A DNA stretch of 30,315 nt from a virus. The notes below the pieces were generated by a model. That model was not told the origin of the DNA, made no database searches, and saw only the letters and a program-made list of their open reading frames with translations. The DNA lies in the IMG/VR virus record IMGVR_UViG_3300010938_000538, positions 1 through 30,315 of that record. The stretch is one strand, 5' to 3'. The position numbers were made by a program, and so were the translations under genes. Of the stretch, positions 1,720 through 26,536 are shown piece by piece. Within the stretch, counting starts at the first letter, position 1; every line of letters begins with the position of its first letter.

Positions 1720-1911
1720 ATGGCTGTGCTTTCTGAAAGGGATTCCGGTGCCGAGAGGGAAGTGAGGCCGGCAAGCGAGAAGGAGCAGCAAGAGCGGCTC
1801 GTCGAGATCGATGATGTCGATATTGACGGAATGGTGCAGTTGCTGTCCCAGAAGGTGAGGCAGGTACAGGCCGATGACGATGGTACGGATGGCCGACGAG
1901 GGTGCTTATGA
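1720..1911 (+). CDS. Small acidic protein, unknown function
   Basis: This gene encodes 63 residues, very rich in Glu and Asp, with probable helical segments (SEKEQQERLVEIDD and MVQLLSQKVRQVQ). The start is supported by AGGAG 5 nt upstream of the ATG. The stop overlaps the next start as ATGA (1908-1911), so the two genes are probably translationally coupled. An acidic partner ahead of a hydrophobic protein is reminiscent of a chaperone or antitoxin/toxin pair, but nothing in the sequence proves that. I do not recognise the family. Confidence 0.7.
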   Translation: MAVLSERDSGAEREVRPASEKEQQERLVEIDDVDIDGMVQLLSQKVRQVQADDDGTDGRRGCL

Positions 1912-2231
1912 CATACGGACGCGGAAAAGGGTTGCTGGACTATTACGACCTCGCAACCGGAGAGTACCAGGCTGCACGGCAAAGGAAGCCGCAGAGGGCG
2001 CAGTGGATGGACGGGCTGCAAGATGCGCTGAGCGTTGCAGGCTTCTTCCCCGTTGTTGGCAGCGTAGCCGATATTGCCAACAGCGGCATCTCCGCGTTGA
2101 GGGGGAATTGGGGAGAGGCGGCGCTCAATGCCATTGCCGCCATTCCCGGCTTAGGAGATGTCGCTGCAATCCCAAAAGGTATGGGCGCGGCAGGCAGGAT
2201 TGCACGCCGTTTCCCTTTCCTGTATAAGTAA
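1908..2231 (+). CDS. Small hydrophobic protein resembling a pre-toxin membrane hairpin
   Basis: This gene encodes 107 residues. I chose the ATG at 1908 (GAGG about 7 nt upstream, ATGA overlap) over the GTG at 1902. Residues about 36-90 carry two Gly/Ala-rich hydrophobic segments: LSVAGFFPVVGSVADIANSGI, then a short RGNWGEA turn, then LNAIAAIPGLGDVAAIP. This arrangement (PGxG..AD, ALRGxxxxA, AIPGLGD) strongly resembles the pre-toxin region found before the toxic domain in polymorphic toxins. Here no toxin domain follows, and the protein ends about 15 residues later in a basic tail. It may instead belong with the other hydrophobic hairpin proteins of this phage. Confidence 0.75.
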   Translation: MTYGRGKGLLDYYDLATGEYQAARQRKPQRAQWMDGLQDALSVAGFFPVVGSVADIANSGISALRGNWGEAALNAIAAIPGLGDVAAIPKGMGAAGRIARRFPFLYK

Positions 2232-2503: not shown

Positions 2504-4102
2504 ATGAGAAACTGGGTGGCTGAGGGGATGGATTGGGAGATGACCCCCGAAAGGTGGCGATGGAGCGAACCGCATGCGTTCCGGTGGGGAAGCGGTCTGC
2601 GACAAGGGATAGATTTAGATCGTGACTGGGGTGAAATCCAAATACCGAGCAAAAGACAGAGTGCAACACAAGAAACACTTTATGAGACACCAAGCTTTAT
2701 GAACCCAATACAGAGAAGATACTACGCAGGAATTGGTTCGCGGGAAACGCCCCACGACGTGCTCAACCTCATGACCTCGATTGCGGAGCGGTTGGAGAAC
2801 ATGGGCTATATCCTTCGCTCCGGTCATGCTAGGGGTGCTGATAGGGCATTCGAGCTTGGCATATCCAACCCGTACATGGCACACATATACCTACCATGGG
2901 ATGACTACGGGGTAAAGCAGTACAAAGACGATCCCGGAATGCCAATCCGGGGACTCAGAATTGCTAAGTCCAGGAAATCCATCCTCGAAGACTACGAGAA
3001 GATGGTAGAGGAAGGGATCGTCAGCCCAAATCTTCCAGAGGCGCATCGCCTGCTCCACGGTCGCAATTACAGTCAGATCTATGGCATGGGGGCGGAACCT
3101 CACTCGTCCTTTGTTGTCGCCTGGACTCCAGATGGGGCGGAAACTCTAAGAGAACTGAGCAGGGACTCTGGAGGAACTGGAGTTACTATCAAACTCGCCG
3201 CCGACTTTGGGATTCCGGTATTCAATCTAAGGCGACCGGATGCAGTTGATAGGCTGTGGCGGTTTGTTACCGTAGATATGGGGCAAGTTCCGCCTACTAT
3301 CGTATCCACGGGTAGGGTTGCGTCTCCCGTCAGCGCCATAAAGGAGATGCTGATGTCCTACAAGGCAACGCCGAACCAGCTATTACCTTTGCTGGCCAAA
3401 GAATACCCGGAAGGGGCTTCCACGCTCGACCTAATGCGCGACTACATGCGCACTGCTACTACTCGTAAAGCCGGGTATGCAAATGTAGGGGATATTGTTA
3501 GGTTCACTGATGGGAGTGAGACGCTGAACCGGCTCTACGAGGTTGCTGAGGTAGACAGTGACATCATCAAAGATCTTCGCGATTACGCTGGCTTTCTAAA
3601 GCAGCAGCTTGAGGAGCAAGGACGGATCGATACCAGCATAAAGTTGTCGCCGCAGGTGATCAGATGGGCTGCATTGGAGGGATGGCATCCGCTTTACGCA
3701 TTCAGCCCCTCAAGTCCGTTTCTTCGTCAGGTGACAGGCGATAATTCAGCACAGTACAGGTTCATCCCCATCCGCACTGAGGGCGAGCGGATCCTGCGCG
3801 ATGAGAGAGGGGTACCTATTATCGATCTGCCCTCTACTACAATCATTCCCATGTCACAATACCAATCCTTGAGCAAGTGGAGGCAAGAGGTACCGGCATT
3901 TGCGCAGAAGGAGATGACTCCATACGGTCTCAATGCCCTGATGCGTACTGCATGGCTCAACCCGCAGAATGCTTACATCATCCAACCGAGGCCGAGAGCT
4001 GAGATAGATAGGATGGTGAATGATGATACTGCCTTGTCCCTACTCCTCGCTCCCCCCCAAAACGTTGTCATGCCTGATGCGCTAAGCGAAGCTGTATTCT
4101 AA
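2504..4102 (+). CDS. SLOG/DprA-like Rossmann-fold protein with a large unknown C-terminal domain
   Basis: This gene encodes 532 residues; AAGGAT lies a few bases before the ATG. Residues about 73-250 carry SLOG-superfamily marks: YYAGIGSRETP (73-83) at the first beta-strand/nucleotide loop, SGHARGAD (106-113) as the second Gly-rich loop, FVVAWTPDG (203-211) and GGTGVTIKLAADFGIPVFNL (223-242). SLOG proteins bind nucleotides or nucleotide-derived ligands, and many are linked to signalling and immunity. The first 70 residues and residues 250-532 match nothing I know. The gene lies outside the structural block, so an accessory role is likely, for example nucleotide handling or sequestering a host immune signal. 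That role is speculation. Confidence 0.8.
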   Translation: MRNWVAEGMDWEMTPERWRWSEPHAFRWGSGLRQGIDLDRDWGEIQIPSKRQSATQETLYETPSFMNPIQRRYYAGIGSRETPHDVLNLMTSIAERLENMGYILRSGHARGADRAFELGISNPYMAHIYLPWDDYGVKQYKDDPGMPIRGLRIAKSRKSILEDYEKMVEEGIVSPNLPEAHRLLHGRNYSQIYGMGAEPHSSFVVAWTPDGAETLRELSRDSGGTGVTIKLAADFGIPVFNLRRPDAVDRLWRFVTVDMGQVPPTIVSTGRVASPVSAIKEMLMSYKATPNQLLPLLAKEYPEGASTLDLMRDYMRTATTRKAGYANVGDIVRFTDGSETLNRLYEVAEVDSDIIKDLRDYAGFLKQQLEEQGRIDTSIKLSPQVIRWAALEGWHPLYAFSPSSPFLRQVTGDNSAQYRFIPIRTEGERILRDERGVPIIDLPSTTIIPMSQYQSLSKWRQEVPAFAQKEMTPYGLNALMRTAWLNPQNAYIIQPRPRAEIDRMVNDDTALSLLLAPPQNVVMPDALSEAVF

Positions 4103-4300: not shown

Positions 4301-4688
4301 CATAGTACATCTGGTGCCATTTGTGTGCCAGGGAATCGGCTAGGGGAATGCCGCGGGCAATGGCAAGGTAGTAGAGTTCCTGTATGTCCGTCTCCCGTCT
4401 CATGATCTCCGACAGGATATCGCTGTCCGTCCACCGCCCGTACCGATTCGAAATTGGTTGGGGTGACGTGTCCTCGTATGCCTGCTCCAACGCTTCATCC
4501 ACGCGCTTGCGTCGTTCCTCTGACATGCGAGTAAACTCGTCAGGCGGGGGAATGGTGCGCCCTCGTCCCTCCGGGTTGGAATCCGTGCGGCTGGGGTAGT
4601 AGGCGCTTACATCCTTCGGTGGGTTCAGCGGGCGACCGTCAAGCGTCAAGCCTTGGTCGTGCATTAGGGCATCGAGCGAGTTGCTCAT
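4227..4688 (-). CDS. Lone leftward gene, unknown soluble protein
   Basis: This gene encodes 153 residues from the ATG at 4688; the frame stays open upstream to 4763. The protein is hydrophilic, with a Pro/Asp-rich first half (PLNPPKDVSAYYPSR) and a helical second half containing WTDSDILSEIMRRETDIQELYYLA and HKWHQMYYVTQVMHALATG. No rightward frame of quality covers 4301-4680, which supports a leftward gene. It starts only 22 bp from the rightward gene at 4711, leaving very little room for divergent promoters. The ribosome site is weak. Isolated opposite-strand genes in phages are often independently expressed accessory genes. Confidence 0.65.
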   Translation of the reverse strand: MSNSLDALMHDQGLTLDGRPLNPPKDVSAYYPSRTDSNPEGRGRTIPPPDEFTRMSEERRKRVDEALEQAYEDTSPQPISNRYGRWTDSDILSEIMRRETDIQELYYLAIARGIPLADSLAHKWHQMYYVTQVMHALATGTAIAPPQQQSHGR

Positions 4689-4710
4689 ACTCGTAAGTGG
4701 CGATGGTACG

Positions 4711-5922
4711 ATGCCATTATCCACGGCGATTGAACCGCAGATGCTTGCAAAGTTCTTAAACAATTTCCGTTCTGGTTTTGATTACCAGGCTCGAAGGCAA
4801 CAGAATCCCGGACTGACGATAGGTCTGTACGCGCAGAAGTCCATCCCCGTTTCCCTGGGCTTCAACTCTGGAAGGCTGGCTGCTGGTATTCTGACCGATG
4901 CCGTGCGCCAACCTTGGTGGATGTACAATCACCCGCTCGGTATTGCGCAGATGGTGGGAGCGAACCTGGCAAAGGTTCCTGGGATGCCTGAGGGGTACAA
5001 CCAACTCGGCGGGACGTTCCTCTCCCTTGGCGTGCTGCCCATCCTCAGCGGCAACTTCGACGTAACCAACCTCGCGCAGTTTGGTAGACCTGCGGGCTAT
5101 TCCGCGTTGTTCCCGTCGCCGCAAGACCCGACCCAAACCACAAATCCCCTAGGGGAATTTGTGGGGCGCTATTTCCTCGGACGCAGGGGAGACGTTCTGC
5201 CTTACGAACAACTGATAAAGGAACTGCCAGGTACCAGCCCAGAGGAGTACGCCCGGTACAAGGATACGATGTCGTTTAGGAACAGGGATTTCTTCGGTTT
5301 CCAGGACGAACCCATCATCCCTACCGTTATGGGTATGGCAATAGGTGCGGGAGTCGGCGCTCTGAATGCAAGAAGGAATACGCACATGGAACTCGACAGC
5401 AATCCCATTGGCCTTAAGCAGTTCAGAGGTAAGGATGGTTCTTGGCAAACAGGAGACTACGACCCCGATAATGGAATCATGGTCGATTACGGAAAGAGAG
5501 TCCCAGAAGAACTAATGGAAGTTGCCCGCAGATACGAGGAGGAGGGATGGGTACCGGAACCTCCTAGGGATGGTACCTACGGCATGGTCTTTGGCGCTAA
5601 TAGGGAGTACAAGGAAGTGCTTAACGATGATGGGATGAGTTTTCCGGGGTACGGGCGGTTCAAGCGCATCGCCTTTCCCATCGTTGGAGCTATTGCCGGT
5701 GGATTGGTGGGGTCTGTAGTTCCTATCCTTACAAACTTGGGTGTAATACGCAGTGGCACATCTCTCCAAGGAAAGCCATCCGTTGCACTGATGGGGTATG
5801 AGGTTCCCCTCGATGCAATTGTAGGAACCGGCTTTGCTGCAGCGGCAATGCACTACGGCCTCAAGAATGCAATCAGGCTGGGGCAGTTTGACTATCCAGG
5901 CGTAAATCGGATTATGTCTTGA
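4711..5922 (+). CDS. Large protein with C-terminal membrane segments, putative virion/ejection protein
   Basis: This gene encodes 403 residues. ATG 4711 was preferred because the longer frame uses a TTG at 4681 that overlaps the divergent gene. The N-terminal half is mixed and includes PVSLGFNSGRLAAGI and a hydrophobic stretch around TFLSLGVLPILSGN. Three further hydrophobic segments follow: TVMGMAIGAGVGALNA (about 208-223), IAFPIVGAIAGGLVGSVVPI (about 320-339) and AIVGTGFAAAAMHYGL (about 370-385). The Gly/Ala-rich small-residue helices resemble those in the block at 6084-9990, so it may be an outlying member of that set. No enzymatic motif seen. Confidence 0.75.
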   Translation: MPLSTAIEPQMLAKFLNNFRSGFDYQARRQQNPGLTIGLYAQKSIPVSLGFNSGRLAAGILTDAVRQPWWMYNHPLGIAQMVGANLAKVPGMPEGYNQLGGTFLSLGVLPILSGNFDVTNLAQFGRPAGYSALFPSPQDPTQTTNPLGEFVGRYFLGRRGDVLPYEQLIKELPGTSPEEYARYKDTMSFRNRDFFGFQDEPIIPTVMGMAIGAGVGALNARRNTHMELDSNPIGLKQFRGKDGSWQTGDYDPDNGIMVDYGKRVPEELMEVARRYEEEGWVPEPPRDGTYGMVFGANREYKEVLNDDGMSFPGYGRFKRIAFPIVGAIAGGLVGSVVPILTNLGVIRSGTSLQGKPSVALMGYEVPLDAIVGTGFAAAAMHYGLKNAIRLGQFDYPGVNRIMS

Positions 5923-5929
5923 GTACTTG

Positions 5930-6075
5930 CGCTGGAAAGGTGCTGGTGGTGTAAGGGTGCTGGTGCGGGTAATGTAAAGGTGTCTGGTAGTGTAAGGGTA
6001 TTGGTACCGATGCAGTACGAGTACCGGTGAAGTACGGGTATCGGTGTAATGCAGGTACCGGTAGTGACGTAAAAG
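5930..6075 (+). repeat. 6-bp-phased GGTGTA/GGTACC repeats, plus polarity
   Basis: This 146-bp intergenic stretch is made of GGTGCT, GGTGGT, GTAAGG, GGTATT and GGTACC steps, mostly spaced 6 bp, with few C on the plus strand. It separates the gene ending at 5922 from the one starting at 6084. GTACCGGT occurs twice near its right end. Confidence 0.7.
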
Positions 6076-6083
6076 GTTAACTT

Positions 6084-6464
6084 ATGGATATTGGTACGCA
6101 ATTACAAGACCTTACCAACGCCCTAAAGGAAAGGTGGGCGATTACCGTTCCCCTGGGAGTGGCGGCGATCGGAGGTACCGGTCTAGCCGTCGCAAACGCT
6201 ATGGGTGCCAACGACCCACCCTCAGCCAATGACGTTACCTCGATGCAGCGGGAGCAGCTACGGCAAGTGTCCTTGGATCTCCCCCCTCTCTCAACCTACG
6301 GTACACCATTGTCAGACCTAGAGCGGTTGCAGCAACGGGTAAAGATCGCCAAAGAGCTACAGGATTATCCCGCTACTCTGCAAAAGGCCGTGCGAGACGT
6401 GCAGGTACAGGCGCAACTTCAGTTCCTCGCGGCACAGAGCCTCGGTAGTCCCTACTGGACGTAA
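6084..6464 (+). CDS. Small protein with one N-terminal membrane helix
   Basis: This gene encodes 126 residues. After a short amphipathic start (MDIGTQLQDLTNALKERW) comes one hydrophobic segment (WAITVPLGVAAIGGTGLAVANAMG, about residues 18-41). The remainder is a hydrophilic helical region (LSDLERLQQRVKIAKELQDY, VRDVQVQAQLQFLAAQ). It starts directly after a repeat block; AAAAGG about 6 nt upstream is the only ribosome-site candidate. It is first in the run of hydrophobic genes and may be an internal virion protein. Family unknown. Confidence 0.75.
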   Translation: MDIGTQLQDLTNALKERWAITVPLGVAAIGGTGLAVANAMGANDPPSANDVTSMQREQLRQVSLDLPPLSTYGTPLSDLERLQQRVKIAKELQDYPATLQKAVRDVQVQAQLQFLAAQSLGSPYWT

Positions 6465-6507: not shown

Positions 6508-7467
6508 ATGAAGCAAAAGGGAAGGTTGGCAAAGATCGTCAAGTTTTTCCAGACTAAGACGGGGGAGGAAGTCCTTGAAGGAACTCTCGGTGGTTTGCTT
6601 GCAGGGATTCCGATGTTTTTCTCAGGTCAAGACCCGCGTACTGCTGCATTGGCCACTATCGGAGGAGTTGCTGGTGGAATCGGTATCGGAATGGCTGGTA
6701 GACGCTTGGGCGAGTTCATAGGCTCTAGGCTGCATCCCGAACCCCTTGCGGATCAGGCCGGGGTTGCGACATTCCTTGCCCGTGCGTTTGGGCAAGAAAC
6801 TATGGGTAAGGCGCTGGAGCAGAACTTTGTCTTTATGCGCGAGGCAGTGAAGAACGCCATGCTAGATAACCAACTCAAGAAGATGGTCGAGGATGGACGC
6901 ATCAGTGAGGAACTGATGGCAGACCTGAGAAAGTACCAGACGCTTTCCGCCATTGCATCCGCTGTCAACGATATGCCGTCGGAGCAGCGCAGGCAACTCC
7001 TTCAACAGTTCGATACGTACCTGACTCAGGCAGATGTAATAGCAGGGGGAGTAAACGATAACCTACGTCGGGCAAGGGAATATGCGGACAGAATGAAAGA
7101 GGTTGGGATGTGGGATGCCGTTGCAGCACGAGAAGCAGCGGCAAACCTTGATGAAGGGTTGAGGGAATTTGCAGAGAATATGCGGAAGATGGGAAATGAA
7201 TGGGCGAGCGATTCCCAACCCTTTGACCCGAACAGCATCGCCGACTTTGTTCGCGGGGTGGCAGATGGCAATATGGAGAGCATAACCGGAGAGCATGTCG
7301 GTCGTGCCGTAGGGCGCTTCATTGGCGACGAGATCGGAGTCCTAAGCGGTGTAGGTCTCGGAGTAATCGGAGGAAACCTGCTGGGGTTCCAGACACCTCA
7401 AGAGAGAGAGATTGTGTCGTTGAAGGCGCAACTAGCGCAGCGCTCCACCCCTTCGCTGCTGGGGTAG
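6508..7467 (+). CDS. Membrane-hairpin protein with helical middle, putative ejection protein
   Basis: This gene encodes 319 residues. ATG 6508 is chosen over an in-frame TTG at 6502 because GAGG lies 7 nt upstream of the ATG. Residues about 24-63 form two Gly-rich hydrophobic helices joined by SGQDP (39-43). The same (S/T)G(Q/D)P hairpin occurs in the proteins at 7546 and 9319. Residues 75-270 are charged and helical with few hydrophobic runs, and a second Gly-rich hydrophobic stretch (IGVLSGVGLGVIGGNLLGF) lies near residues 283-301. This layout would suit a protein that inserts into a membrane at both ends, such as an injected internal virion protein. No lytic-enzyme motif seen. Confidence 0.75.
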   Translation: MKQKGRLAKIVKFFQTKTGEEVLEGTLGGLLAGIPMFFSGQDPRTAALATIGGVAGGIGIGMAGRRLGEFIGSRLHPEPLADQAGVATFLARAFGQETMGKALEQNFVFMREAVKNAMLDNQLKKMVEDGRISEELMADLRKYQTLSAIASAVNDMPSEQRRQLLQQFDTYLTQADVIAGGVNDNLRRAREYADRMKEVGMWDAVAAREAAANLDEGLREFAENMRKMGNEWASDSQPFDPNSIADFVRGVADGNMESITGEHVGRAVGRFIGDEIGVLSGVGLGVIGGNLLGFQTPQEREIVSLKAQLAQRSTPSLLG

Positions 7468-7545
7468 CCGGGATGGCAGGGAACGTGGAGCGCAATCCCT
7501 CAGCCGGGTTATGATATTAACATTTATGGAGATGGAGGGTAAGTA

Positions 7546-7962
7546 ATGGCAGGGTTTTTACCTACAGCGGCAACGTATGCAACGGGTGTCGGCATCCCCG
7601 CTGCGATCGGCGCTCCTGCGATGGGAGGTATCGGACTCCTTACGGGTCAGCCGGGAATGGCAGAGACGGGAGCGATCCTGGGTGGCACCGTGGGTGCAAG
7701 CATGATGGCTAGCGATGGATTGAAGCAAACATTTAACGCTTCCCATCGAGGCATGGGAGAGGCGTTTGAAAATAACGTATTCCGTCGCCATCCCTACCTT
7801 CCGTATTACGCCCTACTTGGCAGTGCTGCGGGTGCTGCTGGTGGCCTTGGGTACAATCTCCTGACCCGTGGCAATGACATCAACGTTGCCATTCCCACTG
7901 CTGCCCTTGGGACTATTGCTCCTGCCACTGTTGCCCTACTCCATCGTCTGCTGGTGCGCTGA
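7546..7962 (+). CDS. Small polytopic hydrophobic protein with TGQP hairpin
   Basis: This gene encodes 138 residues with GGAGGG 8 nt before the ATG. It is hydrophobic over most of its length: an N-terminal pair of Gly/Ala-rich helices joined by TGQP (33-36), a polar centre (LKQTFNASHRGMGEAFENNVFRRHP), then a second pair (YYALLGSAAGAAGGLGYNLL and VAIPTAALGTIAPATVALL). A holin is a formal alternative, but its position inside the virion-protein block and the shared hairpin favour a structural or ejection role. Its stop overlaps the next small frame as TGATG. Confidence 0.75.
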   Translation: MAGFLPTAATYATGVGIPAAIGAPAMGGIGLLTGQPGMAETGAILGGTVGASMMASDGLKQTFNASHRGMGEAFENNVFRRHPYLPYYALLGSAAGAAGGLGYNLLTRGNDINVAIPTAALGTIAPATVALLHRLLVR

Positions 7963-8051
7963 TGAAGTTGGATACGCTTCCCTTGCCTGAAGCGCGCGCT
8001 GCCAGCCCAACATCCGCACAGCAATGTAAGTTATCGGTGTCATTGCAATGA
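7962..8051 (+). CDS. 29-aa interlocked mini-gene
   Basis: The ATG overlaps the previous stop (TGATG at 7960-7964), and the stop TGA (8049-8051) overlaps the next start as ATGA (8048-8051). The frame therefore bridges the 85-nt gap exactly. The peptide begins MKLDTLPLPEARAA and ends KLSVSLQ. No Shine-Dalgarno precedes 8048, so translation through this mini-frame could deliver ribosomes to the next gene. It may be a coupling device more than a functional peptide. Double overlap by chance is possible but unlikely. Confidence 0.5.
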   Translation: MKLDTLPLPEARAASPTSAQQCKLSVSLQ

Positions 8052-9322
8052 ACTTTATAGGCCGCGTTGCTCGTATTCCGCAAGGTGAGGCGCTCAATGC
8101 CCTTGCCGCTGGCGGTCTGGCCTTGGCAGGTGCGTCGGCTTTTGACCTGCTCCCATCGGTTGATATCGATCCCGTGGGTGTGGGAGTAGGAACCGCACTT
8201 GCCTTCGCCCCAGCGAATGCGTTCGAGCGGTACGGCATAAAGCCAATGTACGTACGAGGTGCGGGTGCTGCGACCCTGGGTCTGGAAGGTGCCCGCATCC
8301 TGGCCAATGCCGCCACGCCTGCGTATGACAGCGACTACGAACGCAATCCGGGTATTGCGATCCTCGCCCCTGGCGCGTTCCTTGGCGGGATAGCCGTATC
8401 GACACCGGAAGGGCGAGGCAGGCTTGCGGCGGATTTGAAGAAGCTGTTTGCCACCGATGCCTCTGCTGCGGCTCCCAGAACCTCTTCTCCGCCGAGCATC
8501 CTAGAAATATTCAGATCTTTAGACGACACTACCGCTGTCCCTGCCACTACCACCGTTTCCGTTGCCCCTGCCGCTGGTACGACTGTGGTTGCACCCACGG
8601 CTGCCACTACCGCTGCCCCTACCACCGTCGTGCATGGTGCCGCCATCCCCGTTGCAAGGGTTGACGAGAAAAGTCAAATAACCATCGTCGTTCCTCCCGA
8701 CTTGGACGAGAAAACGCGGCGGGCGTGGAAATTTGCGGCAGAACTCCTCGACTACAACGAGACGCTGACAAGGAAACAAATCAGCAAACATCCACGGTCG
8801 ATGCTGCGGGAGTTTCTGAATAAACCGGAACTCATGCCCAATGCCTTCAGGGACGTGTTCTCCCAAGAGCCACTGCTAGAGCGCCTCCCCGTGAGCGAGT
8901 GGTACAGTCCCGGCATGGCACCCGGCCTGAAGCAGATGGTAGTGGTGAATCCTTACAACCTCATGGTTCCGAAGTTGATGTACGAGAAGCGGATTGCCCC
9001 GCTCCTGACTGACATGACCCCAGAACAAATACAGGAATTCCTGCGGGGAAGGATGGTTGGGATTGGGGTGACTAGCCTGAAGGAGGGCAAGAGCGATATG
9101 GTCGACCAGTTAGGGGTACCCCCTGGGACGCTGATTCCTGCAAAGAGCCTTTACCAAGACAGGCACATCTTCTCAGACATAATTAGATCGGAACCTTACA
9201 GCGTATTCTCCATGTACAAAGTGCCGCGTATTAGGACTGGGTTGGGAACAGATCTGTTCAATCGTGGAGCAGCGGGAGACACGGCAAACTATACGATTTT
9301 CTATAGGAATGTGAGTCGATGA
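8048..9322 (+). CDS. Two-part protein: membrane-hairpin N-terminus, T/A/P linker, soluble C-terminal domain
   Basis: This gene encodes 424 residues. Residues 15-60 and 70-130 hold Gly/Ala-rich hydrophobic segments (LAAGGLALAGASAF, VGVGVGTALAFAPANAF, IAILAPGAFLGGIAV). Residues about 160-200 are a low-complexity Thr/Ala/Pro/Val linker. From about 205 to the end is a polar, helical domain with several basic patches (KQISKHPRSMLREFLNKPEL) and a terminal region around YSVFSMYKVPRIRTGL. No known enzyme motif is visible. It overlaps the next gene by ATGA at 9319-9322. The layout suggests a protein that places a soluble domain on one side of a membrane. Confidence 0.75.
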   Translation: MNFIGRVARIPQGEALNALAAGGLALAGASAFDLLPSVDIDPVGVGVGTALAFAPANAFERYGIKPMYVRGAGAATLGLEGARILANAATPAYDSDYERNPGIAILAPGAFLGGIAVSTPEGRGRLAADLKKLFATDASAAAPRTSSPPSILEIFRSLDDTTAVPATTTVSVAPAAGTTVVAPTAATTAAPTTVVHGAAIPVARVDEKSQITIVVPPDLDEKTRRAWKFAAELLDYNETLTRKQISKHPRSMLREFLNKPELMPNAFRDVFSQEPLLERLPVSEWYSPGMAPGLKQMVVVNPYNLMVPKLMYEKRIAPLLTDMTPEQIQEFLRGRMVGIGVTSLKEGKSDMVDQLGVPPGTLIPAKSLYQDRHIFSDIIRSEPYSVFSMYKVPRIRTGLGTDLFNRGAAGDTANYTIFYRNVSR

Positions 9323-9990
9323 ATCTATTCCGTCGCATAGGTCAATGGATGGGCAAGGGTTCCGTACCCTCGACGGCTTCCGTCAGCGTCGTTGCCGCAC
9401 CCCAACAGCAGTACCTGCGTTCTGAGGCGCAGGTGTTCCGAGACCTGAGCCGCAGCGCCTTGGGTGGCAGGCAAGGATGGATGACCTTTGCCCGCAACCA
9501 GGCACCTGGCATCATCATGGCGGCTGGGTTTGGTCTCCTCAGCGGCGATCCAACCTATGCCGTTACGGGGCTAGCGGGGGGTATTGCAGGAGCCTTTGCG
9601 GAGGAAACTCTCGCCAAAGCACTTGCCGGACGGCGCGGGGTTAGGGACTACCTCAACCGCACTGCTGCTATGCCCGTTAACGGCGAGAGGATTACCCATA
9701 TGCAAAGGCTTAGGTCTATGTCTCAGCCGGAGTACGAGGAGGCGATTCGTGGACGCGCTACCCGTAGGGCGGTAGAGCTAGGAGAAAGGAAGAGGCACTT
9801 CGGCTATACCGCAGCAGGTGTCACTGCTGATGTCACCGCATCCGCACTGCTACAGGGACTCGTTACGCCACCTCCCATCGTCGGTGTAGGTCGCGGGAGC
9901 GCCCTAAACTACTACGAATCCGCACTCGACCCTAGGTTGCTTGCCGAATCCATCCCTTATCCCACTCTGGTCCCAAACCGCTATGACTGA
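9319..9990 (+). CDS. Membrane-hairpin protein with SGDP turn
   Basis: This gene encodes 223 residues. A polar basic N-terminus (MNLFRRIGQWMGKG) precedes a hydrophobic hairpin at about residues 63-95, IIMAAGFGLL then SGDP (75-78) then AVTGLAGGIAGAF. This matches the hairpins at 6508 and 7546 in layout. A charged region follows, then a weaker hydrophobic segment (TAAGVTADVTASALLQGL) near residues 172-189. The start overlaps the previous stop as ATGA, and the stop overlaps the next gene by 8 nt, so it sits inside a coupled operon. Role inferred as internal virion/ejection protein. Confidence 0.75.
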   Translation: MNLFRRIGQWMGKGSVPSTASVSVVAAPQQQYLRSEAQVFRDLSRSALGGRQGWMTFARNQAPGIIMAAGFGLLSGDPTYAVTGLAGGIAGAFAEETLAKALAGRRGVRDYLNRTAAMPVNGERITHMQRLRSMSQPEYEEAIRGRATRRAVELGERKRHFGYTAAGVTADVTASALLQGLVTPPPIVGVGRGSALNYYESALDPRLLAESIPYPTLVPNRYD

Positions 9991-13151: not shown

Positions 13152-13754
13152 ATGACAGGACGACTGGCTCTATACCTCGGCTCTAGCGTGCTGGGAGCGA
13201 TCGCGGGGGCAGCTGCATCTCCATTATTCGGAAAAGACGAGGAGGGGCAGCAGAGAGTGAGTCCGTTGGATGCGGCATTGGTTTCGGGGATGCTCGTCCC
13301 TCCCGTCGCGATGACCCTGATGCGTCGATTTCCCGATGCAGGTTCCTGGCTGCAACCAGCAGTCGAAAGGACGGTAGAGGTCGTGAAAGAACAGCCAGGG
13401 TTCCTTCCCTTTATATCTCCCAGCAGGGTATGGGCATTTTCAAAGGGGCGCGGTACGGATTACAAGTCGTACGTTAGATATGCGGGGGCGGGGAACACCT
13501 TTAGAAGTCCCGAACCCGGAGAGTTTCCAGATCCCGTGTGGGATTTGCTGCGAAAGCTGGCTTTCAAACAACCGGGCACGCAGATCTACATCCCAAACCT
13601 GAACCTCAGCGGTATCGCAATCCGCAGAGATAAGAAAGATAGGTCTGGGGCACCCATTCACGCATTTATCGTGACTAATAGCGAGGCACTGCAACCCGAA
13701 TGGTATAAGCCTTACCTTGATGAAATAGAAAGCTTAATGGCAGGGAACGGATAG
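13152..13754 (+). CDS. Hydrophobic-hairpin protein, tandem paralogue A
   Basis: This gene encodes 200 residues with AGGAGA 4 nt before the ATG. The N-terminus (MTGRLALYLGSSVLGAIAGAAASPLFGKDEEG) holds a hydrophobic helix followed by a charged turn and a second hydrophobic helix (AALVSGMLVPPVAMTLM). The C-terminal domain (about 95-200) is soluble, with VWAFSKGR, TQIYIPNLNLSGIAI and EALQPEWYKPYLDEIESLMA. All these blocks recur in the next gene, so the pair arose by tandem duplication. The position between the terminase subunits is unusual and its role there is unknown. Confidence 0.8.
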   Translation: MTGRLALYLGSSVLGAIAGAAASPLFGKDEEGQQRVSPLDAALVSGMLVPPVAMTLMRRFPDAGSWLQPAVERTVEVVKEQPGFLPFISPSRVWAFSKGRGTDYKSYVRYAGAGNTFRSPEPGEFPDPVWDLLRKLAFKQPGTQIYIPNLNLSGIAIRRDKKDRSGAPIHAFIVTNSEALQPEWYKPYLDEIESLMAGNG

Positions 13755-13766
13755 GAGTGACGGTTT

Positions 13767-14438
13767 ATGGCAGGACGACTGGCTATATATCTCGGTTCTA
13801 GCGCGCTGGCAGCACTTGCAGGAGCAGCTGCATCTCCGTTGTTTGGGAAGGATGAGAAAGGGGAGCAAAGGGTGCATCCGCTAGTGCCTGCACTGGCCTT
13901 CGGAGCAGCTGCCCCTCCCATTGCAATAGCCTTAATGCATCGGCGCTCTAGCCCAGTCCGTCCCAGGCAAGTTCCTCTCCTCCCGCCACAGGCTGAAGAA
14001 AGCGCAAAACGAGTACCAAGGCAGCCACCGCCCCTTGTCATACCCCGTGATACGGTATGGGGAATGTCGAAGAGCCGCTACGTAGATCCTGGAATATACG
14101 TCACGCCTATGGGAGAGGGCAGCATCTTCAAGAGGGGCGGAGATCGTGTTATGAGAGAGACGCAAAGGTTCGCGCGGAGGGTGGAGCTTAATCCGCCGAA
14201 AACGGAGATCTACGATCCAAAACTAGGTCTCACTGCGATTGCGATTCCTACGGGAAGAACAGACGAATTTGGGAGGGACATTACTACCATCCTCATGACA
14301 AGCGGCCAAGCACTGGAAGCCAATTGGTATGAACCCTACTTCGATCGGCTGGAGGAAGTGATGGCAGATTTAGATCGGAAATACCTTGAGGAACTAGAAA
14401 GGTTGGCGGAAGAAGCTCGCAAGAGAGGCATCTCTTGA
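13767..14438 (+). CDS. Hydrophobic-hairpin protein, tandem paralogue B
   Basis: This gene encodes 223 residues. The N-terminus MAGRLAIYLGSSALAALAGA is nearly the same as in paralogue A, followed by the shared SPLFGKDEKGEQRV. The C-terminal domain aligns through VWGMSKSR, TEIYDPKLGLTAIAI and QALEANWYEPYFDRLEEVMA. A Pro/Arg-rich insert (about 55-90) and a charged helical tail (KYLEELERLAEEARKRG) are specific to this copy. DNA similarity of the two starts is visible by eye, so the duplication is not ancient. Probably membrane-associated or internal; function unknown. Confidence 0.8.
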   Translation: MAGRLAIYLGSSALAALAGAAASPLFGKDEKGEQRVHPLVPALAFGAAAPPIAIALMHRRSSPVRPRQVPLLPPQAEESAKRVPRQPPPLVIPRDTVWGMSKSRYVDPGIYVTPMGEGSIFKRGGDRVMRETQRFARRVELNPPKTEIYDPKLGLTAIAIPTGRTDEFGRDITTILMTSGQALEANWYEPYFDRLEEVMADLDRKYLEELERLAEEARKRGIS

Positions 14439-14521: not shown

Positions 14522-16168
14522 ATGCCATCCATTCGCAGGGCAATCAGGAAGGGATCGTATACGGGTGCCCTTTTACGTGCAGAGTACTTGCGGCAAAAGG
14601 CCATACGCGATGCTCCGGTGGAGGAACTGGTGCTAGCTGCGAGGCAGAATACGGAAGAGGGGTTCTACGCCTTCCGTCGGTACGTGTGCTACCCGGAGGC
14701 GCAGGGAGCTATCAACGAACCGGCATCGCTGCGGTATGCCAAACCGCGACATCACGTCGACTGGACGCAGAGGTTGTATACGGGTAAGGATAGCGGTTGC
14801 CTGCGGGGAATAGCAGGGGATCCGCTACTCATCCTGTCTCCGCGCGGGTCGGCAAAGTCCACCTTTGCCACGGAATGGTTTGCTCATCAGATAGGGATAC
14901 AGACTGGGTACGGCATCCCTATCAAGTTGATGCTTTTGTCCTATAACGTCACCATCTCAGAGCAGAAAAGCGAGCAGATACAGCGAATCGTGGCCTCTCC
15001 GCGATACAGGACAGTATTCCCGCACGTTTGGCCTGGAAAGAACTGGGCGAAGGGACAGTGGGAGATCGATAAAGCCAAAGCGAACCTTCCCATGCTAGGG
15101 GAACCGTATACCGTCACCTGCTCCGGTCTGACGGGGGGTGTAGTATCGAAACGAGCGCACATAATCTTTGGCGATGACATCATCAAATCCCCTAAGGACA
15201 TCGCAAACCCTTACGTACGCGAGCAGATGGTTAGTAACTGGAGGAGTGCCGTAAAACCCGTCCTGTACCCTGGTGGGCGATACCTCATCCTCGGCACCCG
15301 AATGACGGGCGATGACATTTACGTCGAGGAGTTTAACGAGGATAAGGGTTGGGAAGTGGTCGAGCAGTCGGCGATCGAGCTGGACGAGGAAGGGAGGGAG
15401 AGGTCGTACTGGCCGGAGCAGTTCTCCCTCGACTACCTGCGCTCTCTCCGCGACCCGCCCAGTGGCGATGCCGTGTCCTTCTCCTTTCAGTACCAGAACA
15501 AAATCGTTGCCATTGGTGGCCTATCCATCCCCGCCCATTGGTTGCATCACCGGCACCCGGCAGATATATCGGAGTACGTACAGTGGGCGGTTGGCTCTGA
15601 CCTAGCCGCATCCAAAGGGAAAGAGGCGTGCTACACGGTACTGACGCTCATGGGCAGGCGCAGGGACGGAACCATCGACGTAATAGATTACAGAAGAGGG
15701 CGGAGTCCGGGGAACTTGGACAAGCTCAAGTGGTTCCTCGAACTTCTGTGGTCGTGGGGCTTGCTCGATGACGGTGACGAACCCCTGCCTCCATCCTTGG
15801 AGGAGATCCTTCCCTCTTCGTACAAGAGCAAGACCGGAGTCTACGTCGACTTCTTCATCGAGGACTTTGGGCAGCAGAAGAGCATCAAGGACGACTTCCA
15901 GGCGATCGTTCACAACGTGCTGAAGTTATGGAACCTCACCCCACGTCTCGTGCAGTTTGGCATGACCGATAAGAGAGAGAGGTTGATGCAGTGTACCGGC
16001 CACTTGCAAAGGGGAGCGGTTCAGTGGAACCCGGTCACCTTCCCTCACCGGGGCGAGTACCTACGCGAATTCACTAACTTCGGTGCCGCATCGTATGATG
16101 ACTGCGTCGACTCGTTCACGTGTGGTGCCATTGGTATGGGTCTGCGTGGTACGTTGCAAGGTGGATGA
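14522..16168 (+). CDS. terL: Terminase large subunit (packaging ATPase and nuclease)
   Basis: This gene encodes 548 residues. The ATPase domain has a Walker A-type loop LSPRGSAKST (105-114), Walker B HIIFGDDI (213-220) and a coupling motif ILGTR (256-260). The nuclease domain carries the acidic residues expected of the RNase H-like fold: Asp360 in VGSDLAAS, Glu447 in FFIEDFG and Asp526/527 in ASYDDCVDSF. It powers DNA translocation into the prohead through the portal and cuts the concatemer. Length is normal for the family. GGGAGAG lies about 10 nt upstream of the ATG. The portal follows after a short repeat spacer. Confidence 0.93.
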   Translation: MPSIRRAIRKGSYTGALLRAEYLRQKAIRDAPVEELVLAARQNTEEGFYAFRRYVCYPEAQGAINEPASLRYAKPRHHVDWTQRLYTGKDSGCLRGIAGDPLLILSPRGSAKSTFATEWFAHQIGIQTGYGIPIKLMLLSYNVTISEQKSEQIQRIVASPRYRTVFPHVWPGKNWAKGQWEIDKAKANLPMLGEPYTVTCSGLTGGVVSKRAHIIFGDDIIKSPKDIANPYVREQMVSNWRSAVKPVLYPGGRYLILGTRMTGDDIYVEEFNEDKGWEVVEQSAIELDEEGRERSYWPEQFSLDYLRSLRDPPSGDAVSFSFQYQNKIVAIGGLSIPAHWLHHRHPADISEYVQWAVGSDLAASKGKEACYTVLTLMGRRRDGTIDVIDYRRGRSPGNLDKLKWFLELLWSWGLLDDGDEPLPPSLEEILPSSYKSKTGVYVDFFIEDFGQQKSIKDDFQAIVHNVLKLWNLTPRLVQFGMTDKRERLMQCTGHLQRGAVQWNPVTFPHRGEYLREFTNFGAASYDDCVDSFTCGAIGMGLRGTLQGG

Positions 16169-16210
16169 TGCGGTAAGGGTAAAGGCAAGGCAAGGGTAAA
16201 GGCAAGGGTA
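16169..16210 (+). repeat. GGTAAAGGCAAGGG repeat leader of the portal gene
   Basis: The 42-nt spacer consists of GGTAAGGGTAAAGGCAAGGC, then AAGGGTAAAGGCAAGGGTA, directly before the portal ATG. Every unit contains AAGG, so the repeat itself supplies the Shine-Dalgarno. This is a compact example of the genome-wide plus-polarity intergenic repeat. Confidence 0.65.
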
Positions 16211-18253
16211 ATGGCAAGCGCGCTGAACGAGGCCATACAAAGTCTGATCGCAAGGGACAACTACGGTACCGAATCCCTGGTCGTACCGGCACACGTGCAA
16301 CAGATCGTGCTGTGGATGGTACGCCAGGGGCTAGAGTTTATCCCAAGACAGGATACGCCAGATGGAAGCCGACGCAGGTTCCTAGAGGATGTCGTAAAGG
16401 CAAATAAGTTACCCCTGTACTACAGCGGCATCGCTTCCTTGTTCCTACTAACCGGGGGCATCTTGTGGTACATCTATCCCACGGTCAGCGGCTATGGCAT
16501 CTACTGGTTCCATAGCGGAAAGGAGAACAATTCAGGGGCGGATGTCCCTTCCCAGTACCTAGTCTTTTACGCGCCAGGAGGGAGGGAATTGCAAGAGGCG
16601 ATCGTCCGTTACCCCTTTGTAGACTACGGCTACGGTAACGCGGCGATGCTGCAAATGCCGAAGAAGGAGCGCTGGATTCGGATGCGCATCCGACCGGAGC
16701 GGATAATGCAGGAGCTGTTTGATGAATGCCCTCCACTGAACCCCTACGCCATCGATACGTCCTCAATCCACAGCGCTCCAAGGGAGGTGAAGGAGTATGC
16801 CAACTCCTTCGGTTTCGTTCCCTGCGTTGAATCCCCGAACCGTCCGTATCTCCCAGGGGAACCGGGGAAGTCAGACTTCAACCTAGTTGCAAACCAGGTG
16901 GAGGTGGAGGACGGTATCCGTTCCGCAATCCTGGCCAATATCTTCACCTTTGGAAATCCCACGCTGGTTACGTCTCGTCCTGTGGAGCAGGTGCTGACTT
17001 CCCTCGGCGATGCCATAAACCGCATCAATATGGTAGGAGATTCGTCCTCGTGGGCGGCATCTCAGGGGTTTCGTTCCATTGGCAGCAACCCCTTTGCGTT
17101 CGCTCCCCTTAACCGCAATGGGATGAAATCCTGGTCGGTGCGCAGTAGGGAGCGCATCGCCCCCATCATTGGTAACGTAGACGAAACGGAACGGTTCGGT
17201 TATATCTACCCAGATCCTGTCAGTCCAGACCAAACTAGATTTGCCGACCAATACCGCTCGGCAATCCACGCCTCCCTTGGTGGCATTGACCCGCTCGATA
17301 CGTCATTTTCCACATTTGGGGAGGTCAAGTCCCTATTCGGGAAGGTAGCAGCAACTGCCCTGGAAAAGTCCCGCTCCCTATGGGAGTACGGCCTTTGCTC
17401 CCTTTTGTCCATGGCAATCCTAGCCGAGGAGCAGCTGTTTGCAGACCGTTTCAAATGGTCTCTCTCTAAGGTCGATCCCAAGATAAAAGTAGAGGAGGTG
17501 ACGGACGAGCAGATTAGCATCCTGTACTTCGATCGGGGTGTAAGGTTCCCAGGCCTCAGCGGCCTTTGCCCCTACGGTACCCGCGAGGTGAAGTGGCGAC
17601 ATCAAGGCCCCGTATTCGAGGATTCGCCAGAGGATAAACTCCAACGCACCATCTACTGCCGCAACCTTCAAGAGTTAGGCGTAGGTTCCCTTGAAGCTTT
17701 GGATGAAGTGTTCCCCGACCTCAGCGAGGAAGAGAAACGGGCAATGCTCACTGGCATCCCTTTCCGCACCGTTAACCAATATATACAAATCATTGGGCAG
17801 ATGTTAGGATTGCAGCAGCAGATGCTACAAACCCCGGACGTGCAAGACCCAGGCACTCCGATGGCCATACGTTTTGACCTCTCTCCGTACATCGAGAAGG
17901 TCATGGCAGGGTTGGCAAGAGAGCTTTCCTACGGTTCGTCCTACGACGATGCCGACCCAAACCAAGACCCCAGAACGAATCATGGCACAAGCCAATTACT
18001 TACCAGTACAGAGTCCTCAGGTGGTGCCGTTTCCGACACCGCAGACGGTACCAGCATCGCAGGCTACGATTGGGCAAACGTACCCATCGTACCCGGTGCA
18101 ACAATACGCACCCGCTCTCCCGGTACAGGGATGGGTGGGGGGTGGAATCCCAACGGCACAGGTCTCCTACGCCCCGCAGCCTACGCCAACACAACCCTAC
18201 CTGTACGGAATGGTGCAGCAGGCGCAAAACGCAAGCCGTCAAAGCGACCTTGA
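16211..18253 (+). CDS. Portal protein
   Basis: This gene encodes 680 residues, in the normal size range for portals of short-tailed phages. It lies directly after terL and before the scaffold and capsid candidates, which is the canonical order. It is a soluble protein of mixed structure with long helical regions (AATALEKSRSLWEYGLCSLLSMAILAEE, and QYIQIIGQMLGLQQQMLQTP near 550). The last ~90 residues are low complexity (Ser/Thr/Gly, ending GAAGAKRKPSKRP) and are encoded in the same DNA as the start of the next gene in another frame. The portal forms the dodecameric DNA entry ring. Assignment rests mainly on order and size. Confidence 0.75.
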   Translation: MASALNEAIQSLIARDNYGTESLVVPAHVQQIVLWMVRQGLEFIPRQDTPDGSRRRFLEDVVKANKLPLYYSGIASLFLLTGGILWYIYPTVSGYGIYWFHSGKENNSGADVPSQYLVFYAPGGRELQEAIVRYPFVDYGYGNAAMLQMPKKERWIRMRIRPERIMQELFDECPPLNPYAIDTSSIHSAPREVKEYANSFGFVPCVESPNRPYLPGEPGKSDFNLVANQVEVEDGIRSAILANIFTFGNPTLVTSRPVEQVLTSLGDAINRINMVGDSSSWAASQGFRSIGSNPFAFAPLNRNGMKSWSVRSRERIAPIIGNVDETERFGYIYPDPVSPDQTRFADQYRSAIHASLGGIDPLDTSFSTFGEVKSLFGKVAATALEKSRSLWEYGLCSLLSMAILAEEQLFADRFKWSLSKVDPKIKVEEVTDEQISILYFDRGVRFPGLSGLCPYGTREVKWRHQGPVFEDSPEDKLQRTIYCRNLQELGVGSLEALDEVFPDLSEEEKRAMLTGIPFRTVNQYIQIIGQMLGLQQQMLQTPDVQDPGTPMAIRFDLSPYIEKVMAGLARELSYGSSYDDADPNQDPRTNHGTSQLLTSTESSGGAVSDTADGTSIAGYDWANVPIVPGATIRTRSPGTGMGGGWNPNGTGLLRPAAYANTTLPVRNGAAGAKRKPSKRP

Positions 18254-18749
18254 TAGCAGTACAGGTAGAGACTTGCGAGGGGAACCCCTTGCCTCTCTGC
18301 GTGACATAATCCAGCATTTCGGCAAGGGCGATGCTGCCACGGCTTTGGCAGAGCTGAACAAGACAGCATGTGCGTTAGAGGACATGTACAACGCCCTTCT
18401 CCAGAAGTACGCGCAGCTGGAAGCGTATGCCGCTACTATCCAGGACGAAGCGTTGCGGATGGGAACCCTGCTCTGCTCCCCTTCGTATTTGAGCGATTAC
18501 TACCGGCGCTTGGAGTACGAAGTGGCAGAGTTGCCTTCCATTCGTAAATTCCGCGCCACCTACCCATCTGCTACCTACGAACAGTACGCGGAGTGGCTGA
18601 ACCAGTCTCACCAATCCAGCGACACCATTCCCGCACCTCCAAATCCCATTGCAATGTCCGGTATCGACCCATGGCGCTATATCCAAGGAGATCCGACGCA
18701 AGCATGGCGCGTAATAGACCAAGCCGGTATCGGCGCACTGTTGCAGTAG
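17982..18749 (+). CDS. Putative capsid scaffolding protein
   Basis: This gene encodes 255 residues. I chose the ATG at 17982; in-frame starts at 17949 and 17874 are possible. The ribosome site is weak (AGAACGA). Residues 1-85 are Pro/Gln/Tyr/Val-rich and disordered-looking (YPVQQYAPALPVQG). Residues 95-160 are helical (ATALAELNKTACALEDMYNALLQKYAQLEAY). The C-terminus is short and mixed. Position between portal and major capsid protein is the classic place for a scaffold. The first 272 nt overlap the portal gene in a different frame. Scaffold identity is inferred from context. Confidence 0.65.
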   Translation: MAQANYLPVQSPQVVPFPTPQTVPASQATIGQTYPSYPVQQYAPALPVQGWVGGGIPTAQVSYAPQPTPTQPYLYGMVQQAQNASRQSDLDSSTGRDLRGEPLASLRDIIQHFGKGDAATALAELNKTACALEDMYNALLQKYAQLEAYAATIQDEALRMGTLLCSPSYLSDYYRRLEYEVAELPSIRKFRATYPSATYEQYAEWLNQSHQSSDTIPAPPNPIAMSGIDPWRYIQGDPTQAWRVIDQAGIGALLQ

Positions 18750-18759
18750 GAGTTAGACT

Positions 18760-19983
18760 ATGTCATTCGTAGATAAGCTGGAAATCATCATGGGGGCGGA
18801 ACTGTATCGTCCCTCACCAACGTACATCGCTAAGTACGTGATGCAGCCACCCGTGGTGCACGACTTCAGTATGGTGCCAGGTTCCACCGTTCGCATGAAA
18901 CGCTACGGCTTCTGGAACGACCCCGGCTCGTACACGGAAGATGCCCGTTCCCGCGACAACGGCCAGATCATTGGCACTGGTGGTAGTCGTTCCTTGCCTC
19001 AAGAAGAGGTAATGCTGACCCTACGTGAATTCACGGGGCCGACAAGTGGCGACCCTAACAATGTCAACGAACCGGGGACGCTGCGCATTCCACTACGGGA
19101 ACTTATACAGGCACAGCGAAACCTGTACGACATGGCAAGCGCCGATGCGTTTCACGATTCCATCGGTTCCCGGACATTGTTCGAGGATTACCGTCGGTGG
19201 CAGGATGCGGTGTACATCAACCGCGCCCTCAGTGCCAATGCCGCAACGCCAACGGGCGGTCAGATGGCTAACAGTCGCCAAGGGGGATACTATAACCCAT
19301 CCGGCGTTCCCAACGGCGGCACGTACAACGCAAGTACCGGCGTTCCCCGCGTGGATATTATCCGCGACGTTACCCAAGTGGTAGCAGATATGCGCACGCG
19401 AATGGTTCCACCTTTCCAATCCAACCTGGGAGATTGCTACCACGCTCTCGCATCTCCCAACTTCATGCGCCAATTGCGTCAGGATCCGTCCTTCCGCGAA
19501 GCAGCACGCTACCCTGGCATTCCTATCGCAATGCTAGGAGCGGGACCGACTCCTAATAGCGCACCAGCCATGCCGCCCATGATGAACTGGACTCTCAGCC
19601 CTAACGAGTTAATTTCCCGTGGTGGGTTCTACGGACAGACCGGGTTCATGCACTCGCAGGTGATGCCTGTCGGGGTGTTCTGGGAGGGTATCCGCTGGTT
19701 CGAGTGCCAGACCTTACCGACGGCTACGGTGCAGTTGACCACCACGGGACTGAGTTCGCAGGGGTACAGTGACGGAACCGGGGTGAACCGTACCGCAGAA
19801 CTGGCGATCGTCTTTGGTCGCGACCTGGTAGGTGAAGGGGTGTGGAGCCGGGGGCCGAGCGTCCTCCTGAACAGCGACAACGACTACGGGCGGTTCCTCA
19901 TCGCCATCTGGCAGATCTACGCAGGGTACACAACCCTGAACCCGAACAACGTCACCGTAATGCGCACGTTCAATCCCTTCTGA
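18760..19983 (+). CDS. Major capsid protein (HK97-fold, possibly N4 gp56-like)
   Basis: This gene encodes 407 residues with TAGGAGTT before the ATG. An N-terminal helical/extended arm leads to VHDFSMVPGSTVRMKRYGFW. The middle holds LGDCYHALASPNFMRQLRQDPSFREAARYPG, resembling the conserved 'address a fixed position, then L..D..F..A' stretch of N4 gp56-family capsid proteins. A later GGFYGQTGFMHSQVMP and C-terminal AIWQIYAGYTTLNPNNVTVMR fit the same family. Hundreds of copies form the icosahedral shell. It follows the scaffold candidate by 10 nt. The exact capsid family is uncertain, but the capsid call from order and length is good. Confidence 0.8.
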   Translation: MSFVDKLEIIMGAELYRPSPTYIAKYVMQPPVVHDFSMVPGSTVRMKRYGFWNDPGSYTEDARSRDNGQIIGTGGSRSLPQEEVMLTLREFTGPTSGDPNNVNEPGTLRIPLRELIQAQRNLYDMASADAFHDSIGSRTLFEDYRRWQDAVYINRALSANAATPTGGQMANSRQGGYYNPSGVPNGGTYNASTGVPRVDIIRDVTQVVADMRTRMVPPFQSNLGDCYHALASPNFMRQLRQDPSFREAARYPGIPIAMLGAGPTPNSAPAMPPMMNWTLSPNELISRGGFYGQTGFMHSQVMPVGVFWEGIRWFECQTLPTATVQLTTTGLSSQGYSDGTGVNRTAELAIVFGRDLVGEGVWSRGPSVLLNSDNDYGRFLIAIWQIYAGYTTLNPNNVTVMRTFNPF

Positions 19984-25027: not shown

Positions 25028-25066
25028 CGCGCATCGGGTTGTAGCATTGCTCGCAGTACGCATACC

Positions 25067-26449: not shown

Positions 26450-26534
26450 GGTGCAAGTGCTAGTCAGCGTGAGAACGAGTGCGGGTACGGGCACGGGTAC
26501 GAGTACGGCAGGGGTACGTAGTGAGGGAGAAGCA
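26450..26534 (+). repeat. GGTACGGGCACGGGTACGAG repeat, plus polarity
   Basis: An 85-bp spacer whose middle (about 26479-26520) consists of GCGGGTACGGGCACGGGTAC, then GAGTACGGCAGGGGTACG. The 6-bp GGTACG step is clear. It ends in GAGGGAGAAG, the ribosome site of the next gene. Confidence 0.65.
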
Positions 26535-26536
26535 AG

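Follow-up and report, generated by a model that had tools for sequence, protein, structure and literature searches.

The DNA analysed here (the window, positions 1 to 30,315 of IMG/VR record IMGVR_UViG_3300010938_000538) comes from a virus that, judged by its genes, belongs to the same lineage as the short-tailed cyanophage S-EIV1, within which it is divergent, and it carries a conserved cassette of hydrophobic-hairpin and hydrophilic proteins ahead of its packaging and head genes. On balance, the cassette probably encodes virion-carried ejection or channel proteins that act like gp14 to gp16 of T7 or gp7, gp16 and gp20 of P22 without being homologous to them.

Lineage and layout of the cassette

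The portal-like protein, TerL and capsid protein of the window matched those of S-EIV1 (KJ410740) with E values of 2e-91, 5e-42 and 3e-23, p4711 and p21167 also have homologs there, and in both genomes a block of hydrophobic-hairpin proteins precedes TerL. Identity to S-EIV1 is only about 30-37 %, however, most of the cassette proteins cannot be aligned, and no homolog of p6508 was found in that genome. The terL genes of the nearest relatives are 47-50 % identical to that of the window. S-EIV1, a cultured member of the lineage and the nearest isolate, is filed under Caudoviricetes and listed as short-tailed (PMC7156551, PMC9382816). At least 584 related portal-like loci were obtained in one scan, and a single-sequence scan with the portal-like protein of the window (p16211) gave nothing usable. 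In one ocean survey (PMC5332604), 3.3 % of the cyanophage content belonged to the group containing S-EIV1. Phages of this kind are widespread, yet every one of their cassette proteins is annotated as hypothetical. The cassette and the genes that follow it are:

4711-5922, plus strand: p4711, 403 aa, cassette marker with three Gly/Ala-rich hydrophobic segments
6084-6464, plus strand: p6084, 126 aa, one hydrophobic segment at 17-37 (dG +1.2)
6508-7467, plus strand: p6508, 319 aa, N-terminal hairpin (SGQDP loop), helical middle, conserved C-terminal TGEHVGRAVGRFIGDEIG and hydrophobic segment
7546-7962, plus strand: p7546, 138 aa, two hairpins with TGQP and TRGNDI loops
8048-9322, plus strand: p8048, 424 aa, N-terminal hairpin (DIDP loop), third hydrophobic segment, Ala/Thr-rich linker, hydrophilic C-terminal domain
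9319-9990, plus strand: p9319, 223 aa, weakly hydrophobic hairpin with SGDP loop
9986-12440, plus strand: p9986, p10567, p11019, p11557 and p11982, five charged hydrophilic proteins, probably helical, with no hydrophobic or membrane segment
12447-13094, plus strand: p12447, 215 aa, TerS candidate, named by position
13152-14438, plus strand: p13152 and p13767, tandem paralogs between the TerS candidate and TerL, each with an N-terminal hydrophobic pair and a hydrophilic C-terminal domain
14522-16168, plus strand: TerL (phrog_38, 4.6e-56)
16211-18253, plus strand: portal-like protein (phrog_20475, 3.9e-116)
17982-18749, plus strand: unnamed open reading frame
18760-19983, plus strand: major head protein (phrog_1357, 1.1e-9)

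The cassette is syntenic in the closest relatives, where it runs in the order p4711, p6084, one to three tandem two-hairpin paralogs, p8048, hydrophilic helical proteins, TerS candidate, TerL, portal-like protein and capsid. Across the 84 loci with sufficient upstream sequence, the block before TerS, TerL, portal and capsid is conserved, and a mean of 4.8 of its 10.2 genes encode a hydrophobic segment. Homologs of the marker p4711 are present at 71-72 loci across the lineage, including S-EIV1 48626-49588 (E 3e-18) and the closest relative, L173 (1.1e-78), and the p4711 profile matched a p4711-type protein in the hydrophobic block before TerL (6.7e-33). Syntenic homologs were found for p6084 in L173 and others (2.3e-14), for p8048 in L173, L174-L177, L179 and L183 (best 1.4e-7), for p11557 and p11982 in L173, L179, L183 and others, and for p12447 directly before TerL in the closest relatives (E about 1e-25). 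The match of p12447 to its S-EIV1 counterpart was too weak to count, and no significant link to p9319, p9986, p10567 or p11019 emerged from profiles of the genes that follow the p8048 homolog. The tandem p13152 and p13767 are the only clear paralog pair within the window (mutual iE 1.8e-42), and counterparts are absent from the same place in L173, L176, L179 and L183.

The clustering of Gly/Ala-rich hydrophobic proteins upstream of terL, to which the earlier note had drawn attention, was borne out. Such segments occur in 8 of 18 open reading frames upstream and 1 of 14 downstream (Fisher P = 0.044), and in 128 distinct related loci, which are not independent of one another, in 250 of 883 upstream and 52 of 748 downstream.

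The hairpin proteins

Open reading frames are present at 6508-7467, 7546-7962, 8048-9322 and 9319-9990, as the earlier note had them, and the SGQDP, TGQP and SGDP loops of p6508, p7546 and p9319 each lie between two small-residue hydrophobic stretches. These three proteins had been taken as a shared hairpin family; the loops and paired stretches are real, but no mutual homology was detectable with profiles. In leave-one-out searches with hairpin-seeded profiles the hairpins of p6508 and p7546 were not recovered and that of p9319 was recovered weakly, which rules out a single homologous family; compared pairwise, only p9319 and p7546 matched each other (iE 0.017). The apparent strength of an iterative hairpin profile had come from scoring its seeds against themselves. 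A strict pattern of loop plus hydrophobicity was observed twice against 0.165 expected in shuffles, and a relaxed loop pattern that also catches p9319 four times against 2.2 in shuffled sequences (P = 0.17), a non-significant result on which the loop motif was rejected as a statistical signature. The hairpin predicted in p6508 appears in the AlphaFold model as a helix at 17-38, a loop at 39-42 and a helix at 43-75, but with pLDDT of about 40-50 across most of it.

Tandem two-hairpin paralogs that are truly homologous to one another, with TxGSDPNP and TxGxDIDxN loops, are present in one to three copies at the same cassette place in the uncultivated relatives L173, L176, L179 and L183. Their profile matched p7546 modestly (12.2 bits; best of 1,023 decoys 8.0), the match being to their second hairpin, and p7546 lies between p6084 and p8048 as the paralogs do. 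It is probably the window's copy of this family, by sequence and position; the window differs in having one copy plus the unrelated p6508, which was not among the listed matches of the paralog profile, and p9319 scored just -0.3 bits.

The family of p6508 is a separate one, confined to the lineage: homologs were found at 25 S-EIV1-like loci and none in cellular genomes. Their position in the genome is variable. In some relatives they lie 25-45 kb from the portal gene, which we count against a role in ejection; in L030 the homolog directly follows a peptidase-like open reading frame within what was judged by eye to be the structural module, and this placement, like the confinement of the family to phages of one lineage, would speak for such a role.

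The hairpin of p9319 is hardly hydrophobic (best dG +3.2). It matched weakly the Gly/Ala-hairpin family of S-EIV1 49618 (12.3 bits; best decoy 7.8), a family built by jackhmmer at 1e-10; at E <= 1e-4, Gly-rich stretches drew p4711-family proteins into the search. A single-sequence scan with p9319 gave nothing usable, and a resemblance to membrane proteins of Microbacterium phage Crestdrop (E 0.06), next to an endolysin gene, was judged to be chance.

Comparison with ejection systems and competing roles

A multi-component ejection apparatus, one of the two readings offered in the earlier note, fits best because the cassette is conserved beside TerS, TerL, portal and capsid in a short-tailed lineage, with a type of particle that depends on ejection proteins (PMC8954989), because the marginal hydrophobicity and Gly/Ala richness of its segments fall in the range of P22 gp7 and T7 gp16, although the T7 holin shares the hydrophobicity range, and because hydrophobic-hairpin and hydrophilic helical proteins are mixed as in T7 gp14, gp15 and gp16. 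In T7, too, small hydrophobic and larger hydrophilic helical proteins are encoded upstream of terL, and gp14 is matched in weak hydrophobicity as well. The hydrophobic proteins of the window are, in contrast, more numerous and smaller, and their genes lie directly before TerS and TerL rather than after tail genes. P22 gp7 has a C-terminal pair of Gly/Ala-rich hydrophobic segments like the window hairpins, whereas the genes for gp7, gp20 and gp16 lie downstream of the coat gene. The location upstream of terL, which had been called unusual for internal virion proteins, is not anomalous, because T7 and P-SSP7 have such genes there, although P22 does not.

No homology to named ejection proteins, those of T7 and P22 included, was detected by Pfam, PHROGs, PDB sequence search or fold search, which counts against the ejection reading, and the cassette proteins had no usable Pfam, PHROG or PDB match. 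Fold searches with the low-confidence models of p6508 and p4711 returned no informative match. The p4711 model, folded from an alignment with the S-EIV1 row left out, has a core at 118-190 with pLDDT of about 80-97, and its sole significant match was a viral protein without a name.

The same proteins could be virion or assembly proteins with no membrane role, their Gly/Ala-rich helices packed together around the portal as part of a core, a neck or a scaffold. Conservation of the cassette next to the packaging and head genes would suit this, and the predicted insertion energies are positive, so that membrane insertion is not assured; but unrelated cassette families have kept pairs of hydrophobic segments joined by short polar loops, and the alternation of hydrophobic with hydrophilic members is that of known ejection sets. 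We regard this role as unlikely, though worth keeping in view. Somewhat less likely still is that they act in the membrane of the infected cell, in lysis as holins, in superinfection exclusion or in membrane remodelling, and are not virion parts. Holin and spanin genes commonly lie directly upstream of terL, as in T7, and the tandem p13152 and p13767, which exceed the rest of the upstream set in hydrophobicity (dG +0.7), are exactly there; the T7 holin also falls within the hydrophobicity range of the cassette segments, a further point against ejection. Against this, five to nine such proteins are more than the one or two that lysis requires, most of the segments are weaker than a typical membrane anchor (the T7 Rz-like protein, for example), and the annotated lysozyme of S-EIV1 lies elsewhere, at 73216-73881.

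A lipid membrane in the virion, with the hairpin proteins as its membrane proteins, had been offered as the other possibility and is very improbable. Internal-membrane phages have another capsid fold and another packaging ATPase. The window encodes a terminase, a portal-like protein and a PHROG major head protein, which are those of tailed phages, in keeping with the placing of S-EIV1 in Caudoviricetes; by PHROG match it has TerL (phrog_38) and the major head protein (phrog_1357), not the non-terminase ATPase and jelly-roll capsid of the Tectiviridae/Corticoviridae type, and the membrane-containing virion is therefore unsupported. What favours it is the number of small hydrophobic proteins and the chloroform sensitivity of PA-SR01, an unrelated tailless cyanophage, which its authors do not regard as proof of lipid (PMC7431792).

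Proposed working of the putative ejection cassette

Under the preferred ejection reading, the genes from 4711 to about 12440 and those at 13152-14438 would encode internal ejection or channel proteins, and we infer that these are present in particles, insert into membrane, oligomerise and let DNA pass. The hydrophobic members would be soluble when made and packed near the portal, would leave with the DNA at infection, and would enter membrane through their Gly/Ala-rich hairpins only upon delivery, where glycine-zipper hairpins could form oligomers in the cell envelope. The soluble part of the conduit would be supplied by p9986 to p11982 and by the C-terminal domains of p8048 and p13152/p13767. 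Among relatives, hairpin genes have been duplicated, lost or exchanged, which would be expected for parts adapting to each host envelope.

More tentatively, and with a fair measure of doubt, five to nine small glycine-zipper hairpin proteins may make up, as a modular set, the DNA conduit of a widespread aquatic phage lineage; with their genes tandemly duplicated and swapped between relatives, they would form an apparatus not homologous to the T7, P22 and N4 types. An ejection role would make the cassette an independent, modular way across the cell envelope, and several orphan protein families conserved in many genomes would gain a role. A cassette protein of one relative (L139) carries Peptidase_S74, a virion-fibre domain, which is likewise counted for ejection.

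Lineage and the conserved block upstream of terL

The window is a viral contig of 30,315 bases, in which three structural and packaging genes were assigned by PHROGs matches:
14522-16168, TerL
16211-18253, portal-like structural protein
18760-19983, major head protein

Searched against 50,697 annotated phage records, the portal-like protein had a single relative, that of the Synechococcus phage S-EIV1 (33.5 %, E 2e-91); the name "portal" was given by position or by eye. The TerL proteins of the window and S-EIV1 share 37 % identity, and p4711, p18760 and p21167 (window proteins are named by ORF start) also matched S-EIV1, which later papers list among short-tailed phages (PMC7156551, PMC9382816). 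The TerL of S-EIV1 (24081-26621) has 846 aa versus 508 aa in a close relative (L030), and its extra part, starting CLVGDTMVLTNHG and ending HNFIANGFNVLNC, looks intein-like by eye. A profile of the portal-like protein returned at least 584 related loci, of which 80 were kept, and a p4711 search returned 55; ORFs in related contigs were called mechanically as longest ORFs.

The block upstream of TerL is conserved in 84 loci, those with enough upstream sequence. Its usual order starts with one large and two small proteins, then a ~200-aa hairpin protein, a p4711 homolog and a G/A-rich hairpin protein of ~270-350 aa; after these come a mainly hydrophilic group and a TerS-like gene. p4711 therefore marks the block. 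Hydrophobic segments occur in a mean of 4.8 of 10.2 block genes. G/A-rich hydrophobic segments were found in 8 of the window's 18 ORFs before terL versus 1 of 14 after it (P=0.044), and across 128 distinct related loci in 250/883 versus 52/748 genes; since these loci are related, the counts are less independent than the nominal P (1.5e-30) implies. The composition and place of these segments are the robust part of the earlier note.

Hairpin families within the block

The ORFs of p6508, p7546 and p9319 were correctly placed by that note, and each has a short S/T-G-(Q/D)-P turn flanked by small-residue hydrophobic stretches. No homology among the three hairpins was detectable: leave-one-out profiles failed for p6508 and p7546 and were weak for p9319. 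In addition, the excess of the relaxed loop pattern in real over shuffled proteins was not significant (P=0.17).

A hairpin family does exist in the lineage, but with a different membership. The nearest relatives from a TerL scan (47-50 % identity) have a cassette syntenic with the window: p4711, p6084, tandem gene(s), p8048, hydrophilic proteins (homologs of p11557 and p11982 among them), p12447 (a TerS candidate by position or by eye), TerL, portal-like protein and capsid. Between p6084 and p8048 lie one tandem gene in L179, two in L176 and three in L173 and L183. These are mutually paralogous (e.g. L173 2306 vs 3284, iE 1.9e-12; L173 2763 vs L183 3256, 1e-20), each with two hairpins whose usual loops are TxGSDPNP and TxGxDIDxN. 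The syntenic p7546 matched the paralog profile via the second hairpin (12.2 bits, against 8.0 for the top-scoring of 1,023 decoys, made by shuffling and reversing window proteins), and p9319 weakly matched the hairpin family of S-EIV1 gene 49618 (12.3 bits; best decoy 7.8). p6508 was not found in the nearest relatives.

Homologs of p6508 were found in 25 loci (27-42 % identity within the aligned set), and searches of cellular genomes and of S-EIV1 gave none. The S-EIV1-type portal-like protein was present in all nine carrier contigs of at least 57 kb and in 14 of all 20 searched. The gene lies upstream of TerL in the window, between TerL and portal in L138 and L139, beside the p21167 homolog downstream of the capsid gene in L030 and L141-L143, and elsewhere in the lineage 25-50 kb from the portal gene; in L030 it is directly 3' of an ORF resembling, by eye, a peptidoglycan peptidase. 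Conserved features are zipper glycines, a loop Asp (~90 %) and a C-terminal TGE-x-x-GR-x-x-GR-x-x-GDE-x-G. An AlphaFold model from 21 aligned sequences was mainly helical, with a low-confidence hairpin at 17-38/43-75; mean pLDDT was 64 (~64 in both models made), and ~40-50 across most of the hairpin. L138 carries tandem homologs (4445-5470 and 5496-6437), the first much more divergent (6e-9).

A possible ejection function

Window segments are only marginally hydrophobic, their insertion being predicted to cost roughly +0.7 to +3.2 kcal/mol. The G/A-rich P22 gp7 (+2.8 and +3.0 kcal/mol), T7 gp16 (+1.2, +2.0) and T7 gp14 (+3.1) fall in this range, as does the T7 holin (+1.6), so hydrophobicity alone cannot tell ejection proteins from holins. 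T7 gp14 is insoluble in water when isolated, is kept soluble in the particle by gp15, and is ejected first to give an outer-membrane pore (review PMC8954989). Like the T7 set, the cassette mixes small hydrophobic-hairpin and hydrophilic helical proteins and adjoins packaging and portal genes. From this shared make-up we lean slightly towards internal, ejected channel proteins, which would be present in particles, leave them during infection and form a pore. Searches for homologs among known ejection proteins gave none, so the claim is one of working like them, not of membership. The virion role is mildly supported by L139 2346-3122, a cassette protein just 3' of the p4711 homolog. In this protein a hydrophobic helix leads into a C-terminal Peptidase_S74 (intramolecular chaperone) domain, which scored 37 bits against a cut-off of 22; a motif search showed no other such case among the loci. 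The domain is familiar from virion fibres. A lipid-containing virion, the other suggestion of the earlier note, is unlikely, since the phage has a terminase, portal-like protein and major head protein. Nor is the position upstream of terL unusual, as had been thought: internal virion genes of T7 and P-SSP7 also lie there, unlike those of P22.

Other features

Further observations in the window were:
1902-2231 (+), 109-aa protein containing a pair of hairpin-like Gly/Pro stretches, FPVVGSVADIANS... and IPGLGDVAAIPKG
2504-4102 (+), DprA-like protein (phrog_768, 3.4e-40), where the structural side starts
640-1178, 5939-6062, 16175-16218, 26485-26518, 27297-27438 and 30254-30315, short G-rich tandem repeats (units e.g. 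GGTACGGGTAAG)
29640-30110 (-), 156-aa ORF

By eye, the first resembles the pre-toxin TG domain found in polymorphic toxins; Pfam gave no match. Directly 3' of the p6508 homologs, L138 6437-7825 and L139 10903-12015 encode proteins that by eye look related and of nucleotide-binding type; a direct search of both genomes with p2504 gave no match. The repeats occupy many intergenic gaps and reach the contig's right end, which may be an assembly break inside a repeat. In the 156-aa ORF, a single strong hydrophobic segment at the C-terminus comes after a long stretch resembling a coiled coil.
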